This document shows positions 2,955-49,957 of a DNA stretch of 53,358 nt, in pieces (the stretch's first letter is position 1; every line of letters starts with the position of its first letter). Under the pieces are notes generated by a model. That model was not told the origin of the DNA, did not search any database, and was given only the letters and a program-made list of their open reading frames with translations. The translations under genes were made by a program, and so were the position numbers. This DNA is from an uncultured Actinomycetes bacterium (GTDB taxonomy: Bacteria; Actinomycetota; Actinomycetes; Nanopelagicales; Nanopelagicaceae): positions 1-53,358 of the forward strand of contig CAIYBL010000084.1 of the NCBI GenBank assembly GCA_903924485.1, written 5' to 3'.

Positions 2955-3464
2955 ATGTCTACTGCAACCTTGCACACCTCATCGGGCGACATCATTATCG
3001 AGTTGTTCCCGAATCACGCTCCAAAGACAGTGGCTAACTTTGTTGAATTAGCAACAGGTGCACGTGAGTGGACAGATCCTCGTGATGGCAAGAAAAGCAC
3101 AGCCAATCTTTATGACGGCACTGTCTTTCACCGTGTTATCGAGGGTTTCATGATTCAAGGTGGAGACCCACTTGGCCGCGGAACTGGCGGACCTGGTTAT
3201 CGCTTCGCAGATGAATTCCACGGCGAATTAGTTTTTGACCGTCCATACATTTTAGCAATGGCCAATTCTGGACCAGGAACAAACGGGTCACAATTTTTCA
3301 TCACACTCGCTCCAACAACATGGCTTAATCGCAAGCACACAATTTTTGGTGAAGTAAAAGATAAGGCAAGCCAAGGCGTTGTTGACGCAATCGGTCAGGC
3401 TAAGACCGATGCCCAAGATCGTCCCGCGACACCGATAACGATTAACTCAGTCACCATCGCGTGA
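2955..3464 (+). CDS. Cyclophilin-type peptidyl-prolyl cis-trans isomerase
   Basis: A 169-residue single-domain cyclophilin that catalyses cis-trans isomerisation of Xaa-Pro bonds. Family motifs run in order: [10 protein letters not shown], the active-site segment [20 protein letters not shown] (catalytic Arg after FH, and the FMIQGGD block), [16 protein letters not shown], and TIFGEV. No signal peptide is visible, so it is cytoplasmic. ATG 2955 has a GAAAGG site nine bases upstream. The next gene (rhomboid) starts inside this stop codon, so the two are translationally coupled. A cyclophilin (ppiA) occupies the same place between gyrA and crgA in Mycobacterium. Confidence 0.95.
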
Positions 3465-4038: not shown

Positions 4039-4063
4039 ATGTGGAGGAATTACAACGGTGTAA

Positions 4064-23858: not shown

Positions 23859-25163
23859 GTGTCTACTTTTCGAATTGCCATTGTTGGAGCAGGTCCTGCT
23901 GGTTACTTTGCAGCTCAAGCCTTACAAAATAGCGCGACAGAAGATCGTGACTTTGCAATAGATATGTTTGAACGCCTTCCAACTCCTTGGGGTCTTGTTC
24001 GAAGCGGTGTTGCCCCTGACCATCCCAAAATCAAGACCGTTGCCAAAGTCTTCGAGAAGATTGCAACCGCTGGAAACTTTCGCCTATTTGGAAATGTTGA
24101 ACTAGGTACCGACATCACAGCCGAGCAGTTGCAGTCGCACTACGACGCCGTAGTTATTTCGACAGGATCCGCACTTGGCAGAAAACTCGGAATCCCCGGC
24201 GAAGGTCTTTTCGGATCGCTCTCTGCTGCAGATTTTGTGCCTTGGTACAACGCCCATCCTGATTTTGCCGACCTTGAGGTTCCACTCGATTGTGACACGG
24301 CAGTGATTATTGGTGCGGGAAACGTTGCGATGGATGTTGCTCGCATGTTGGCACTGGAGCCTTCCGAGCTAGATTCAACCGATACCGCAGACCACGCCAT
24401 CGCAGCCTTGCGTAAGAGTTCTGTACGACAGGTCTACCTGTGCGCTCGCCGAGGACCAGAACATGCGGCATTTACCTCGCCAGAATTACGCGAACTGCCC
24501 AAACTAGAGCACACAAATGTCTTGATAAATAAGGCCCAAGTCACTGATGCACAGGTGCGCCTTGGGGAAGGCGCAGAAAAAGATGTGCGAAGCAATCTTG
24601 AAGCAATGTCACTCATTGCGGGACTAGAGGAGACGCATCACGAGCGCACCATGCACCTTGAATTCTTTTTAGCTCCTCAGGAGATTCTCGGAAATGGCCG
24701 TGTGGAAGAAATGGTTTTCGGCATCAACACATTAGTGAATGGTGAAATCGTTCCAACAGGTGAAACACGATCCATCAAGTGCGGATTGGTTATTTCCGCA
24801 ATCGGCTATCAAGCCGAGTCCATTGATGGGGTCCCTTATAAATCGGGCAAGATTGCAAATGTTGATGGCCGCATTGAAGGCACAAATATGTATACCGTTG
24901 GTTGGGCAAAGCGTGGACCATCTGGGGTTATCGGTACAAACAAGAGTGATGCCAGCGACGTTATGAAATTGCTTGTTGGTGACCTTGCTACTCAACCAAA
25001 GCAAGAGTCAGATCTAGCGCAGTCCCTGGTCGGTCACAGAGTTGTCACCCAAGAAGGCTGGGAAAAAATTAATGCTGCAGAAGTTGCAGCGGGTGAGTTG
25101 TTAAATAAACCGCGTCGCAAAGAATCAAAAGCAGATGAACTTCTAAAGATGGCCGGACTTTAA
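23859..25163 (+). CDS. fprA: Ferredoxin/adrenodoxin-type NADP+ reductase (FprA family)
   Basis: A 434-residue FAD- and NADPH-binding reductase that moves electrons between NADPH and ferredoxin. The FAD motif IVGAGPAGYFAAQAL is at the N-terminus, followed by RLPTPWGLVRSGVAPDHP, which is diagnostic of the FprA/adrenodoxin reductase family. The NADPH motif VIIGAGNVAMDVARML lies mid-protein, and VGWAKRGPSGVIGTNKSDA is near the C-terminus. GTG 23859 is chosen because GGGAGAAG sits correctly before it; ATG 23847 is the alternative and adds four residues. In actinobacteria such enzymes supply electrons to P450s or iron-sulfur biosynthesis. Confidence 0.93.
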   Translation: MSTFRIAIVGAGPAGYFAAQALQNSATEDRDFAIDMFERLPTPWGLVRSGVAPDHPKIKTVAKVFEKIATAGNFRLFGNVELGTDITAEQLQSHYDAVVISTGSALGRKLGIPGEGLFGSLSAADFVPWYNAHPDFADLEVPLDCDTAVIIGAGNVAMDVARMLALEPSELDSTDTADHAIAALRKSSVRQVYLCARRGPEHAAFTSPELRELPKLEHTNVLINKAQVTDAQVRLGEGAEKDVRSNLEAMSLIAGLEETHHERTMHLEFFLAPQEILGNGRVEEMVFGINTLVNGEIVPTGETRSIKCGLVISAIGYQAESIDGVPYKSGKIANVDGRIEGTNMYTVGWAKRGPSGVIGTNKSDASDVMKLLVGDLATQPKQESDLAQSLVGHRVVTQEGWEKINAAEVAAGELLNKPRRKESKADELLKMAGL

Positions 25164-25170
25164 AGGCAAA

Positions 25171-25473
25171 CTATTCTGGAGTTGAAGTTTCTTCTTCAGA
25201 AGTTTGGTCTACTTTTTTAGTCTGCTCGTGAATCATTCTGTAAGCGGTGTACATCAAAAGGTTCACAACGACGACTACAAGAATCTCCCATTTAAATTTC
25301 TCAGCTTGGGAGATGCAATGCAAATATTTGAAGCAGAACTTACGAGCAATGTTCGCCCTGTCCCTATGGTTGACTTCAATTTGCCAAATAACGGTGGCAT
25401 CAATAACCAACCATAAGAAAACAGTCGCCTTCACTGTCCGGGAAAACGATTGCCACTTCTCGATTGGATTCAT
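25171..25473 (-). CDS. Hypothetical small membrane protein
   Basis: A 100-residue frame that I do not recognise. It has two hydrophobic segments (about 17-31, VFLWLVIDATVIWQI, and about 61-78, WEILVVVVVNLLMYTAY), a basic loop between them and an acidic C-terminal tail ending EEETSTPE. That membrane-plus-charged-tail design is more like a real protein than a shadow frame. There is no competing gene on the other strand. It is convergent with fprA, with seven bases between the stops. No clear ribosome site precedes ATG 25473. Confidence 0.5.
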   Translation of the reverse strand: MNPIEKWQSFSRTVKATVFLWLVIDATVIWQIEVNHRDRANIARKFCFKYLHCISQAEKFKWEILVVVVVNLLMYTAYRMIHEQTKKVDQTSEEETSTPE

Positions 25474-25824
25474 CTGTGAAGGTTAGGTGCCAGCACTTTA
25501 AAAAGCAAAGTTTTGCAAGCGTGCAACCATAAACTTTAAAGTGAGAGTTGAAGGTTGTAATTACACCTGTGTAACCCACGCTCAATTTATACACGCGTAA
25601 AAGTCGCCACGCATTTCGGGGTGCTACTACCCACGGTTTTTGATTGTGCTTGAGGGGTACTAATCGCTAAATTTCCAATCCGCTCAGCATCCGTAGAGCG
25701 CAAAAAATGTTTACGAGGTTGATCGAGGCTTTGTAGTTGAAAAGCCTTATAAATCAAGTGAATTTCGGCGTAAATCCTGCAAAGGATTTTTTTTACGCTA
25801 TCAGGGTGAGAGGCAGGGGTGACT
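25474..25824 (+). promoter_or_regulatory. Long non-coding leader upstream of pilB
   Basis: This 351-base stretch holds no convincing gene. Read on the + strand it contains successive hairpins: 25681-25700 (CGCTC/GAGCG), 25726-25747 (AGGCTTT/AAAGCCT) and a terminator-like hairpin at 25772-25794. All three lie within about 145 bases of the pilB start. The left part should also carry the promoter of the divergent small membrane protein. The arrangement resembles a transcription attenuator or riboswitch, but no known aptamer consensus was recognised. Confidence 0.5.
25772..25794 (+). terminator. Terminator-like hairpin just before pilB
   Basis: AAATCCT pairs with AGGATTT around a GCAA tetraloop. 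A run of eight T residues (25787-25794) begins in the right arm, and outer GCGT/ACGC could also pair. It points toward pilB and ends 30 bases before the pilB ATG. There is no + strand gene between fprA (600 bases upstream) and this site. It therefore either ends a short leader RNA or switches pil expression. Confidence 0.6.
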
Positions 25825-27372
25825 ATGAAGGGCGACCTTCTATCGCGACGCGGCAACCGTGGGGGCAATACCCCAGAGACCGTGGATGCTGATTTGCTCT
25901 CTGTCGAGATCCCTGAGGATCTAACTTTTGAAACCTTTGTTTCAGATCCATACGCCGAAGCCCATAACGCACTACCTCGTCAGAAAGTTCTTGAACTTGA
26001 TTGCTTAGGCCTTCGTTGGGACGGACAAACACTTCTCGTTGGAGCACCTAAAGAATCTTGGGACAAAGTAAAAGAACTCGCTACTCAGCTGGGCATTAAA
26101 GTTAAATTGATCGAGGCATCGCGTGAGGAAATTCGCGAAGCACTCTCTTTGACAATCACAATTGAAAAAGCTTCTTTCGGTACAGCGCAAATTTCAAAAA
26201 GCGATGCGGGCGAAGCGCCTATCTCAAGTCTTGTTCAGCAAATTGTTGAACGTGCATTTTTAGAACGTGCAAGCGATATTCACTTTGAGACCTACGAAGA
26301 CCACGTACTTGTACGCGCACGTATTGACGGACGACTTCGCAACATTCTTGAACTCCCTGCACGACTAGCACCGGCTATCAGCAGCCGTATCAAGGTTCTT
26401 TCAAAGATGAACATCGTCGAGCGTCGACGACCACAGGATGGGCAGTTCACTGCAGTAATTGATGGCCATCCCCTGGATATCCGTGTTGCATCAGTTGCCA
26501 CAGTGTTCGGTGAAAAACTTGTACTTCGTCTTCTTGATGGACGTCGCCCAAGTGTTGACCTTGAGTCACTTGGTATGAGCGCGCACCAGCTAGAGCTCTT
26601 CACCAAAATGATCACAGCAAACAACGGACTTGTTCTTGTGGCTGGTCCAACTGGAAGTGGAAAGACAACGACACTTCACAGTGCGATTCAGTCAGTAGCT
26701 GTAGAACACAAGAATGCAGTGACCATCGAAGACCCTGTTGAGTATGTTGTTCCTGGCATCACTCAGATTCCAGTTTCAGAAGCAAACAACTCAGGATTCG
26801 CTGTTCAACTTCGTGCCGTTCTTCGTCAAGATCCAGACATCATCTTGGTTGGCGAAACTCGCGATGCTGAAACTGCTCGTATCTCAGTTCAAGCCGCACT
26901 CACCGGCCACTTAGTTTTCACATCAATCCACGCAACAGATTCTGTTGGTGCTCTTTACCGTTTATTACAAATGGATATCGAACCCCACTTGGTGGCCTCA
27001 TCGGTTCGTGGAGTTGTCTCACAGCGCCTTATCCGCAAAAACTGCAGATTCTGCACCGTGAAGTACCAAGCAAGCACGGACGAAAAAGTAACTCTTCGGG
27101 CATACGGTTTTTCTAGCGACTCTCTAGCTAAAGGCGTCGGATGCACCCTTTGTGGCGGAAGCGGATACCGCGATCGCATCGCCGCTTACCAAATTTTAAG
27201 TATCAACGAATCACTCACTGAGTTGATTGTTTCTCGACCAGACCCACACGTATTTCGTAAAGCAGCAACGAAGGCAGGAATGACAACGATGGATCAAGAA
27301 GCAGTTCGTTTGGCAGTGGCTGGAATTACCACACTGGATGAGGCAATGACTTTGTTGGTGGGCGATGAATAG
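25825..27372 (+). CDS. pilB: Type IV pilus assembly ATPase PilB (GspE/PulE family)
   Basis: A 515-residue cytoplasmic hexameric ATPase that powers pilin assembly. After an MshEN-like N-terminal region come the Walker A box GPTGSGKTTT, the Asp box (TIEDPVEY), the Walker B-like RQDPDIILVGETRDAET and the His box GHLVFTSIHATDS. A zinc tetracysteine, CRFC...CTLCGGSGY, near the C-terminus is typical of extension ATPases rather than PilT. ATG 25825 with AGGCAGGGG upstream is preferred to GTG 25819. pilC follows directly. No retraction ATPase pilT is in the cluster. Confidence 0.95.
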   Translation: MKGDLLSRRGNRGGNTPETVDADLLSVEIPEDLTFETFVSDPYAEAHNALPRQKVLELDCLGLRWDGQTLLVGAPKESWDKVKELATQLGIKVKLIEASREEIREALSLTITIEKASFGTAQISKSDAGEAPISSLVQQIVERAFLERASDIHFETYEDHVLVRARIDGRLRNILELPARLAPAISSRIKVLSKMNIVERRRPQDGQFTAVIDGHPLDIRVASVATVFGEKLVLRLLDGRRPSVDLESLGMSAHQLELFTKMITANNGLVLVAGPTGSGKTTTLHSAIQSVAVEHKNAVTIEDPVEYVVPGITQIPVSEANNSGFAVQLRAVLRQDPDIILVGETRDAETARISVQAALTGHLVFTSIHATDSVGALYRLLQMDIEPHLVASSVRGVVSQRLIRKNCRFCTVKYQASTDEKVTLRAYGFSSDSLAKGVGCTLCGGSGYRDRIAAYQILSINESLTELIVSRPDPHVFRKAATKAGMTTMDQEAVRLAVAGITTLDEAMTLLVGDE

Positions 27373-47713: not shown

Positions 47714-49957
47714 TTAAGGGTTAATGCCTAGGTCCATACTCTTACGCGTTCTTTGCTCAAGCTTTTCAGATTCTGAGAAGACTTTGAGGAGAAAAGGATT
47801 CTGCCACGTAACGGCCGCTCCAACTCTTACTAAATCACCAGTTGTCGCGGTTACATTCCTTATCTCTGCTGTTCCAAAAAAGCGACTATCCACTGCAATC
47901 GGGATGCGAATGCCCACTTGTCGATCACCCCAGTCAGCTTCGCTAGCGACAAATGAAGCGCCAGAGGTGCTTACATCCACACAGTTTGCGTCAATTCCAT
48001 CTAAGTGCGCGGGTAGTAATACAACTCGCCGTCTTTCATTACGCAACCAAAAATGTTGACGAGCGACATATTGTTCAACAACATAACATTGCATAATAAC
48101 TGCAGTTTTGGATTCGGCGTTGTCCCAGGTGATTCGCCCTCCTGCGCGTACTGTCTCTTTAGTCCCTTCGATACGTTTCTTTGATCGAATTCGGAATTGC
48201 CCTGTTGCCCAGACAATTTTTCCAGATAAATCATGACACGCTATCTCCACCCGTACATTTGAATTCTTTCGCAGAGCTGCCTCGGTAGTAATTATTCCTG
48301 CGCCATTTTGATGCAGATCCACACATTGGCTGAGCAATCCATTCACCCGGGCCTCGAGGCTCACCGGGAATCTCCACAAGGTTCTCTCCTGGCTTCTGTG
48401 ATACATCGACCAAGCGGATCGAGAAATGATGGTGACTTCCATAATTCCAAAAAAGGAAACAATTACAATGGTTGAAGTGGAATGAAGTGTCAGATAGTGC
48501 CATGAGAAGAAGTGATAAGAAATGTAGCTAATCCAAATATTGATTACCGAAAGCAATGAGACAGCGCCAATAACAATTGCAAAGCGCATTTGCCGAACCG
48601 ATGCCCACCCACCAAGGTCCACTTCGTTCTTTGGTGTAACGAGAAATGGGACTTTCGCTTTAGTCCATAAAACGGAGGTGGCTCGGAAATAGGCTTCAAA
48701 GGCCAGGAAGAGGTTGCGGATGCCTTCGACTGGGCTCGTAGTCCCTCGCTCTAGCGCTGTAACAGCCAGGATATTGGTGAATGAAGCGATTCCCCAGAAC
48801 ACGATAAACCAACCACCAACGTAGCCAACGGGTAAGACGCCAAAGAAAACGACTACAACGAGGTTTGCAGAATAAATAAGTTTTTGAAAAGGAGAAAGAT
48901 AGTAGAGCAGACCACCAGTATTAGAGACTCGTTCTAGAACACCTAACTCTTTGCGCCAAGGCAACCGCATGCCTGGGCGGAACAGTTGTAAATTTCCTTG
49001 AGCCCATCTAAACCGTTGAATTACATAGGACGTTAGATTGTCGGGAGCTAGGCCTTGAATCAGATGCTCGTTATGGTAGATGCCGAGGTAACCTTTTAGG
49101 CGCAAATGCAAGGAGGTTTCATAGTCCTCCGTGACGGTCACTGTTGCCAGACCGCCGATCTCCATGAGAGCGCTTCTTCGCAAGATAGCAGCTGAACCGC
49201 ACCAAAAAACTGACTTCAGGCGATTTCGTCCCGGTAAAAGTACATCAAAGAAGAGAGACTGCTCGTTTCTTCCTTGCTCCTCATGCATGATCGAGTTGTG
49301 ATTTCGGAAAGAGTGAGCAGTTTGAACGAGGGCGACTTTAGGATTTACAAAGTAGCCACTGGTTGCTTCGAGAAAATCTGGAGCTGGTACATGATCTGCA
49401 TCGAGCACGAGAAGTAATTCACCCGTTAAATGAGGAAGTGCTGCATTGATATTTCCGGCCTTTGCATGTTCGTTGCTCGTGCGAGTTAGATACTTAATAC
49501 CATAGCGCTCCGCCAGCGCCTTCATCTCTGAGCGATTGCCATCATCGAGTAACCAGATAGTTGTTCGCCCCCGAATTTGTAGCGCACCAATAATCGTGGG
49601 TTCAAGAATATCAATGTCTTCGTTGTACGTCGGGATGATGACATCGCATGTGCTGTCATAAATTGGCAATCTCGGTGAAGATGGTAATCGCCACGAATCT
49701 AAAACAAAGATGAGGAAACTTATGTATCCGTAGAGTTCGGCTATGAATAGCGGAGCAAATGCCCACAGTGGGACGTTGTGAGAGGTTACAAGTAAGCGCC
49801 AGATCAAATAACTTCCACCGCAGATGATTGCAATGATCGCAAGTATTTGCGCTAGGCCCTCACGCTTTTGAAACCAGGATCCGATTGAAACACGCGAAGG
49901 CGAAAGAGATGAAGGTATAGGTGCGTAAGGGACTCTTGGGACTCCTCTTACAGCCAT
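47714..49957 (-). CDS. Family 2 glycosyltransferase, BcsA-like, with PilZ-like regions
   Basis: A 747-residue membrane polysaccharide synthase. Two helices (about 36-58 and 64-87) precede the GT-A domain with VIIPTYNEDID, DDG (138-140), DADH (186-189), TED (276-278) and QRFRW (314-318), the processive cellulose/hyaluronan-type motif set. Further helices follow at about 345-500. The C-terminal part has a PilZ domain with RNERR and DVSTSG, matching the c-di-GMP-binding RxxxR and DxSxxG motifs. An earlier, less perfect copy has RTLWR and DLHQNG. No BcsB or other export gene is adjacent, so the polymer is unknown. Confidence 0.88.
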   Translation of the reverse strand: MAVRGVPRVPYAPIPSSLSPSRVSIGSWFQKREGLAQILAIIAIICGGSYLIWRLLVTSHNVPLWAFAPLFIAELYGYISFLIFVLDSWRLPSSPRLPIYDSTCDVIIPTYNEDIDILEPTIIGALQIRGRTTIWLLDDGNRSEMKALAERYGIKYLTRTSNEHAKAGNINAALPHLTGELLLVLDADHVPAPDFLEATSGYFVNPKVALVQTAHSFRNHNSIMHEEQGRNEQSLFFDVLLPGRNRLKSVFWCGSAAILRRSALMEIGGLATVTVTEDYETSLHLRLKGYLGIYHNEHLIQGLAPDNLTSYVIQRFRWAQGNLQLFRPGMRLPWRKELGVLERVSNTGGLLYYLSPFQKLIYSANLVVVVFFGVLPVGYVGGWFIVFWGIASFTNILAVTALERGTTSPVEGIRNLFLAFEAYFRATSVLWTKAKVPFLVTPKNEVDLGGWASVRQMRFAIVIGAVSLLSVINIWISYISYHFFSWHYLTLHSTSTIVIVSFFGIMEVTIISRSAWSMYHRSQERTLWRFPVSLEARVNGLLSQCVDLHQNGAGIITTEAALRKNSNVRVEIACHDLSGKIVWATGQFRIRSKKRIEGTKETVRAGGRITWDNAESKTAVIMQCYVVEQYVARQHFWLRNERRRVVLLPAHLDGIDANCVDVSTSGASFVASEADWGDRQVGIRIPIAVDSRFFGTAEIRNVTATTGDLVRVGAAVTWQNPFLLKVFSESEKLEQRTRKSMDLGINP

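Follow-up and report, generated by a model that had tools for sequence, protein, structure and literature searches.

Here we show that the type IV pilus genes beginning with pilB are preceded by a structured leader whose hairpins are kept in related genomes, downstream of a predicted promoter that carries a conserved palindrome as its candidate operator. The best explanation, to which we give about an even chance, is that a palindrome-controlled promoter drives the operon and that the structured leader affects the stability or the translation of the RNA. The results below support a structured leader, while transcription attenuation and riboswitching, the two roles proposed for it in a preliminary description of this DNA, are unsupported.

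The window (the whole stretch analysed, 53,358 nucleotides, which is contig C84 of a 1.92-Mb source genome) carries pilB on the + strand at 25825-27372. It encodes the type IV pilus assembly ATPase (Pfam T2SSE, 361.8 bits) and is the first gene of a cluster that continues with genes for a PilC-like T2SSF protein, proteins with a prepilin methylation motif and a prepilin peptidase. Since a minus-strand gene of 100 amino acids (25171-25473) sits to the left of pilB, positions 25474-25818 form a divergent intergenic region shared by the two genes. The product of the divergent gene had no match in a Pfam search; it is 39-59% conserved, and the gene adjoins pilB in all four other pilB-bearing genomes of the genus. 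The preliminary description held that no + strand gene lies ahead of the leader, which is right for the nearest upstream gene, the conserved minus-strand one, but an oxidoreductase gene on the + strand ends at 25163, ahead of the divergent gene.

PilB matches at an E value of 1e-150 or better were found in 5 of 21 genus genomes (the window's own counted). The family search gave 15 genomes out of 296, and an order-level search, over the same number of genomes as the family one, added none. The five genus leaders (window, G019, G009, G010 and G020) can be aligned, and the region of the Shine-Dalgarno sequence and the pilB start (25803-25827, + strand; GTG at 25819 or ATG at 25825) is conserved in all of them. 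The PilB proteins are identical to that of the window at 89% (G019 and G009), 76% (G020) and 72% (G010) of positions. G019 and G009 are nearly identical to each other, and there are therefore four distinct leaders. In these two genomes, a long middle stretch that holds hairpins P2 and P3 is absent, and about 50 extra bases are found near the start. Of the genomes with pilB, the three next in similarity (G025, with two copies, G254 and G087) contain neither the palindrome nor the conserved core in the 550-650 bases upstream, and a search of viral contigs for more leaders returned none. The predicted untranslated leader, about 240 nt long, stands ahead of the type IV pilus genes of a few related actinobacteria.

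A consensus fold of the window, G010 and G020 gives, in order, hairpins P1, P2, P3 and P4. P2, P3 and P4 have identical positions in these three of the four distinct genus leaders and are maintained by compensatory changes. P2 to P4 (131 columns) have an alifold energy of -26.1 compared to -6.9 (sd 2.7) in column shuffles that preserve gap and identity patterns but not dinucleotides (z -7.0, 0/500 shuffles). Taken singly, P2 (25681-25700, + strand) has a z of -3.9 (5/500), P3 (25709-25763, + strand), which consists of two stacked helices, -5.9 (0/500), P4 (25767-25798, + strand) -6.0 (1/500) and the P1 region -1.5 (33/500). Nine of the 39 named pairs are changed on both sides, compared to 3.9 in shuffles (0/500). 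Paired bases occupy 89.7% of the cells of these pairs, and a shift of the partners by 1-3 columns lowers this to 31-50%, a control that is inflated because these rows had themselves supplied the structure. Within P2-P4, changes were less frequent at paired than at unpaired columns in each of the three comparisons (14/68 versus 28/61, 31/68 versus 34/59 and 25/68 versus 37/59). The P1 pairs are nearly invariant, and P1 therefore offers no covariation. These results show that the three hairpins of the preliminary description are real, beyond chance, with the support for P2 and P3 coming from three lineages only, of which G010 and G020 are close.

Folded by itself, the window leader is only slightly more stable than its shuffles (z -1.4; z -1.2, 21/150), and single leaders against dinucleotide shuffles reach a z of only -1.2 to -2.6. 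The fold of the whole leader falls to a z of -1.9 (10/200) with G019 added, and to -1.6 (12/200) with both G019 and G009. As G019 and G009 are close relatives that do without P2 and P3, these two hairpins are dispensable. A covariance model of the structure matched the window, G010 and G020, the last two also in their named copies, and gave weak matches to G019, G009 and their named copies (E 0.026). Its other weak matches lay on the reverse strand, in G010 (E 0.018) and in the window (E 0.71), and at one place each in L013 (E 4) and L006 (E 4.6). Across 48 sources, consisting only of pilB loci and the window, the model found no pilB leader outside the genus, and it found nothing upstream of pilB in G025, G254 and G087 or in seven loci of genus g7 (L042-L048).

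P4 lies directly upstream of the Shine-Dalgarno region and contains what had been called a textbook terminator. The letters of the stem, the T run and the distance to the pilB ATG (25825) are as originally given: AAATCCT at 25772-25778, the loop GCAA, AGGATTT at 25783-25789 and eight T at 25787-25794. Its reading as a terminator is weak. The stem has 2 G-C pairs out of 7 and an energy of -6.2 kcal/mol and is not G+C-rich, and it is absent from the list of a standard terminator scan in which three G-C pairs are required. The T run directly follows the stem, as in a terminator, in the window only; none of the four other genus leaders has a T run at this position, where they carry other hairpins (in G019 and G009 a different one). 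In addition, a longer hairpin encloses the T run, because GCGT at 25768-25771 pairs with ACGC at 25795-25798, which brings the whole to -12.4 kcal/mol. When an antiterminator was sought in the window leader, the best helix competing for the 5' arm reached -7.8 kcal/mol, compared to -11.8 kcal/mol for P4 itself.

A species-specific attenuator, in which P4 and the T run stop some of the transcription near 25794 unless a signal or protein intervenes, could draw on the rarity of these letters. The run is the sole T8/A8 run of the window, where shuffled windows average 5.2, and a perfect 7-bp stem followed by at least seven T in eight occurs twice on the + strand and not on the - strand (shuffle mean 0.14, at least one in 27/200 shuffles). 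P4 can also form before the distal ACGC has been made, as seen in folds ending at 25790 and 25796. Against this stand the A-T-rich stem, the pairing that continues beyond the T run, the lack of a competing helix in the search and the restriction of the T run to the window, and we consider attenuation unlikely. For the same reasons P4 is better read as a hairpin kept as such, into which T residues were inserted in the window species, and what was taken for a terminator is probably no more than one of the conserved hairpins. It is more likely that the leader works through RNA stability or translation than through termination.

The best-conserved sequence of the leader is a core, GGGGTnCnACnACCnnCnGTTTTTGnTTG, which together with the short hairpin P1 (25618-25633) occupies 25618-25646 on the + strand, between the predicted promoter and P2. 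When searched with up to 3 mismatches in its long form or 1 in its short form, the core occurs once in each of the five pilB-bearing genus genomes, always in the pilB leader, and in none of the 55 other relatives or the 291 other family genomes (5/60 and 5/296 in total; 0 for the control). In the leader at L005 (reverse strand, about 3200-3300), the repeats GGTGATCCAGCC, GGGTGACTAGACC, GGGTGATTAATC and GGGGTACCACC follow one another with a period of 12-13 bases just before the core. Masking of the start site by the core had been suggested by alifold and was rejected, since in none of the five leaders did the expected pairs rise above the level of shuffled cores (shuffled cores pairing at least as strongly, of 100: window 71, G019 84, G009 84, G010 27, G020 42). 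The accessibility of the start region bears on our preferred reading of a leader acting on stability or translation: the number of shuffled leaders with equally low values, of 60, was 0 for G010, 9 for G020, 21 for the window, 38 for G009 and 48 for G019, and it weighs against this reading that masking does not exceed that of shuffled leaders in three of the five. A leader peptide was also rejected. In G010 and G020 an open frame of 65 codons runs over the core, but it ends early in the window, and the leaders have no common start codon; the differences by codon position are 13, 21 and 18 (p 0.39), the third position is not favoured, and the conserved stretch is therefore not a hidden reading frame.

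A conserved unpaired sequence that adjoins conserved hairpins, ahead of genes for a costly surface structure, would also fit a riboswitch, and pilus genes of Clostridioides are under c-di-GMP riboswitches. In such a case P1, the core and P2-P4 would form the aptamer and expression platform of an undescribed class of ligand-binding RNA. However, no Rfam family matched the window leader in cmscan, at gathering thresholds or at E values up to 5, and therefore no known second-messenger aptamer was found. Among the relatives' leaders, Rfam matches were confined to L003 and were all below gathering; at 838-917 of this locus, on the far side of the start of the divergent gene, several Rfam hairpin families match weakly on both strands. 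The core found at pilB only, the loss of P2-P3 in two close relatives, a covariance model without a match among the pilB leaders searched from other genera and the lack of a clear switching helix likewise speak against it, and we regard a riboswitch as very improbable.

The preliminary description had also pointed to a PilZ protein in the window as a sign of c-di-GMP signalling. The protein is probably a cellulose-synthase-like glycosyltransferase (47714-49957, - strand), whose PilZ domain scores 23.1 bits with a cut-off of 22.5 bits. At the level of the cell, a role for c-di-GMP is conceivable, given three GGDEF matches in the genome and an orthologue of the regulator BldD with the published c-di-GMP motif, but the spacer of the promoter palindrome is one base too long for a BldD box. 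If there is a second-messenger input, it more likely acts through a DNA-binding protein at this palindrome than through the RNA.

The predicted pilB promoter (25548-25575, + strand) consists of a -35 element TTGAAG at 25548-25553, a 16-bp spacer and a -10 element TGTAAC at 25570-25575, with a predicted start at about 25582. It is absent from the list of a promoter scan of the window; promoters read by eye in the relatives have TTGTTT, TTGAGA or TTGATT, 18 bp and TGTAAT/C, and the layout matches that of the whiB promoters. The candidate operator is the palindrome TTACACCTGTGTAA at 25561-25574, which covers the spacer and the -10 element. Its pattern, TTACAnnnnTGTAA, is present in all five genus pilB leaders with varying central bases (CCTG, TCTG, CCGC, CCCG). 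At 25541-25548 lies GTGAGAGT, an element conserved at a varying distance from the palindrome, with TTGAGA as its form in the remaining four leaders; one pilB of G025 is likewise preceded by TTGAGAG. In the 1.92-Mb genome TTACAnnnnTGTAA has three sites (two for a control pattern), one of them upstream of a WhiB-like gene. The third, at 4050-4063 of the window, lies between rhomboid-like and crgA-like genes near TTATCCACA (4017) and TTATCCACC (4030), which resemble DnaA boxes, and similar palindromes occur beside TTATCCACA in several other genus genomes.

In all 21 genus genomes TTACACGCGTGTAA lies upstream of whiB, and the promoters carrying it are as a rule of the form TTGACT-17-TGTAAT (read by eye, the spacing not counted in every copy). 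WhiB matches were found in 83 of 89 class genomes, and after omission of one (G347) 82 were counted, of which 77 do not belong to the family; the scan took in about 400 to 470 bases ahead of the gene, fewer at one contig end. Outside the family, 31/77 genomes have TNAC(N6)GTNA upstream of whiB, compared to 0-9 for other spacings between 2 and 11, and the N5 spacing is at background (7/77). The class-wide operator TNACAnnnnTGTNA (L098-L180) is found as two adjoining copies in L111, L164 and L165. As the palindrome is found at both genes, the pilB operon and whiB share an operator type. The pilus operon is thereby tied to the operator of whiB, a regulator central to actinobacteria, and a six-base spacer seems to mark the whiB operator throughout the class.

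We next consider which protein may bind this site. BldD with c-di-GMP, acting at 25561-25574 instead of via the RNA, was first favoured. An orthologue is encoded at the pyrR-nusB-efp locus (L083, 1228-1746) and matches the solved structures of BldD, at 7.4e-16 for the DNA-binding domain and at 5e-4 for the c-di-GMP domain; its RSD-X8-RKAD, which reads RGD-X8-RQDD in the Streptomyces protein, fits the signature RXD-X8-RXXD of PMC4151990. TTACAC, the half-site, agrees with TNACNC, and whiB is a published target of BldD (among PMC7026642, PMC5650626 and PMC11215152). The BldD box is TNAC(N)5GTNA (PMC7374567), however, and the pilB site is TTAC(N)6GTAA, with a spacer of six at whiB as well. BldD was lowered because of the class-wide spacing test, in which six rather than five bases are enriched, and it is now an improbable binder. 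The response regulator MtrA, which would link pilus expression to the control of the cell cycle and envelope, is a somewhat better candidate, possible though on balance doubtful. Its Streptomyces site is given as GtnAcC-n5-GTnAcn in PMC13189361, with repeats 11 bp apart (also PMC6265350), and the window sequence ATTACA-CCTGT-GTAACC fits except for A instead of G at position 1 and A instead of C at position 6. According to PMC5845573, whiB is a ChIP target of MtrA in S. coelicolor and MtrA is highly conserved in actinobacteria, in keeping with the class-wide N6 site. Against MtrA, M. tuberculosis whiB2 is not among its targets in the available portions of the sources (among PMC7026642, PMC5650626 and PMC11215152), and most whiB sites end in GTnAt, so that the second direct repeat is without its C and the site resembles an inverted repeat. 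MtrA appears to fit best, yet most copies are symmetrical as inverted rather than direct repeats. The BldM group I site, TCACcCgnncGgGTGA (PMC4125116), is also a palindrome with whiB as a target, but it is not matched at pilB: its TCAC-GTGA halves are eight bases apart, those of the pilB site six. Judged from sequence, the best reading of the palindrome is promoter control by a regulator common to whiB, with a spacing that fits neither BldD nor BldM.

Taken together, these results suggest the following course of events. Transcription of pilB would start at the predicted promoter (about 25548-25582), with on/off control at the palindromic operator that is also present at the whiB promoter. The resulting untranslated leader of about 240 nt would fold into local hairpins, and in P2, P3 and P4 it is the RNA structure that is conserved, with P4 directly before the ribosome-binding site. 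After initiation the leader would most likely influence the stability or the translation of the RNA; it could serve as a barrier, offer a docking site to an RNA-binding protein or be a spacer fixing the fold of the start site. A further proposal, which we think quite unlikely, is a genus-specific class of cis-acting leader RNA on type IV pilus operons, in which the core (25618-25646) and P1-P4 sense a ligand or protein and set pilus output, layered on a promoter switch common to the division and development regulator whiB. The promoter, operator and hairpins provide a testable map of pilus control in a group known here from genomes only.

Compared with known systems, the pilB leader resembles intrinsic-terminator (rho-independent) attenuators of 5' leaders in having a hairpin and then a T run before the first gene, but its stem is A-T rich, its T run belongs to one species and is enclosed by a longer hairpin, and no antiterminator was found. 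It shares with the c-di-GMP and c-di-AMP riboswitches of Rfam the placement of a structured leader on surface-structure genes, while matching none of them at E values up to 5. The palindrome is like the BldD box in its half-site TNACNC, with an orthologue in the genome, and differs in having six bases instead of five between the half-sites; it is like the MtrA site in its two TnAC-type repeats 11 bp apart, whereas the pilB and whiB copies are mostly inverted. It is also like the actinobacterial whiB promoter operator, with which it shares the palindrome TTACAnnnnTGTAA at the same position over the spacer and the -10 element, and from which the pilB site differs in that its four central bases vary and that it is followed by a long structured leader.
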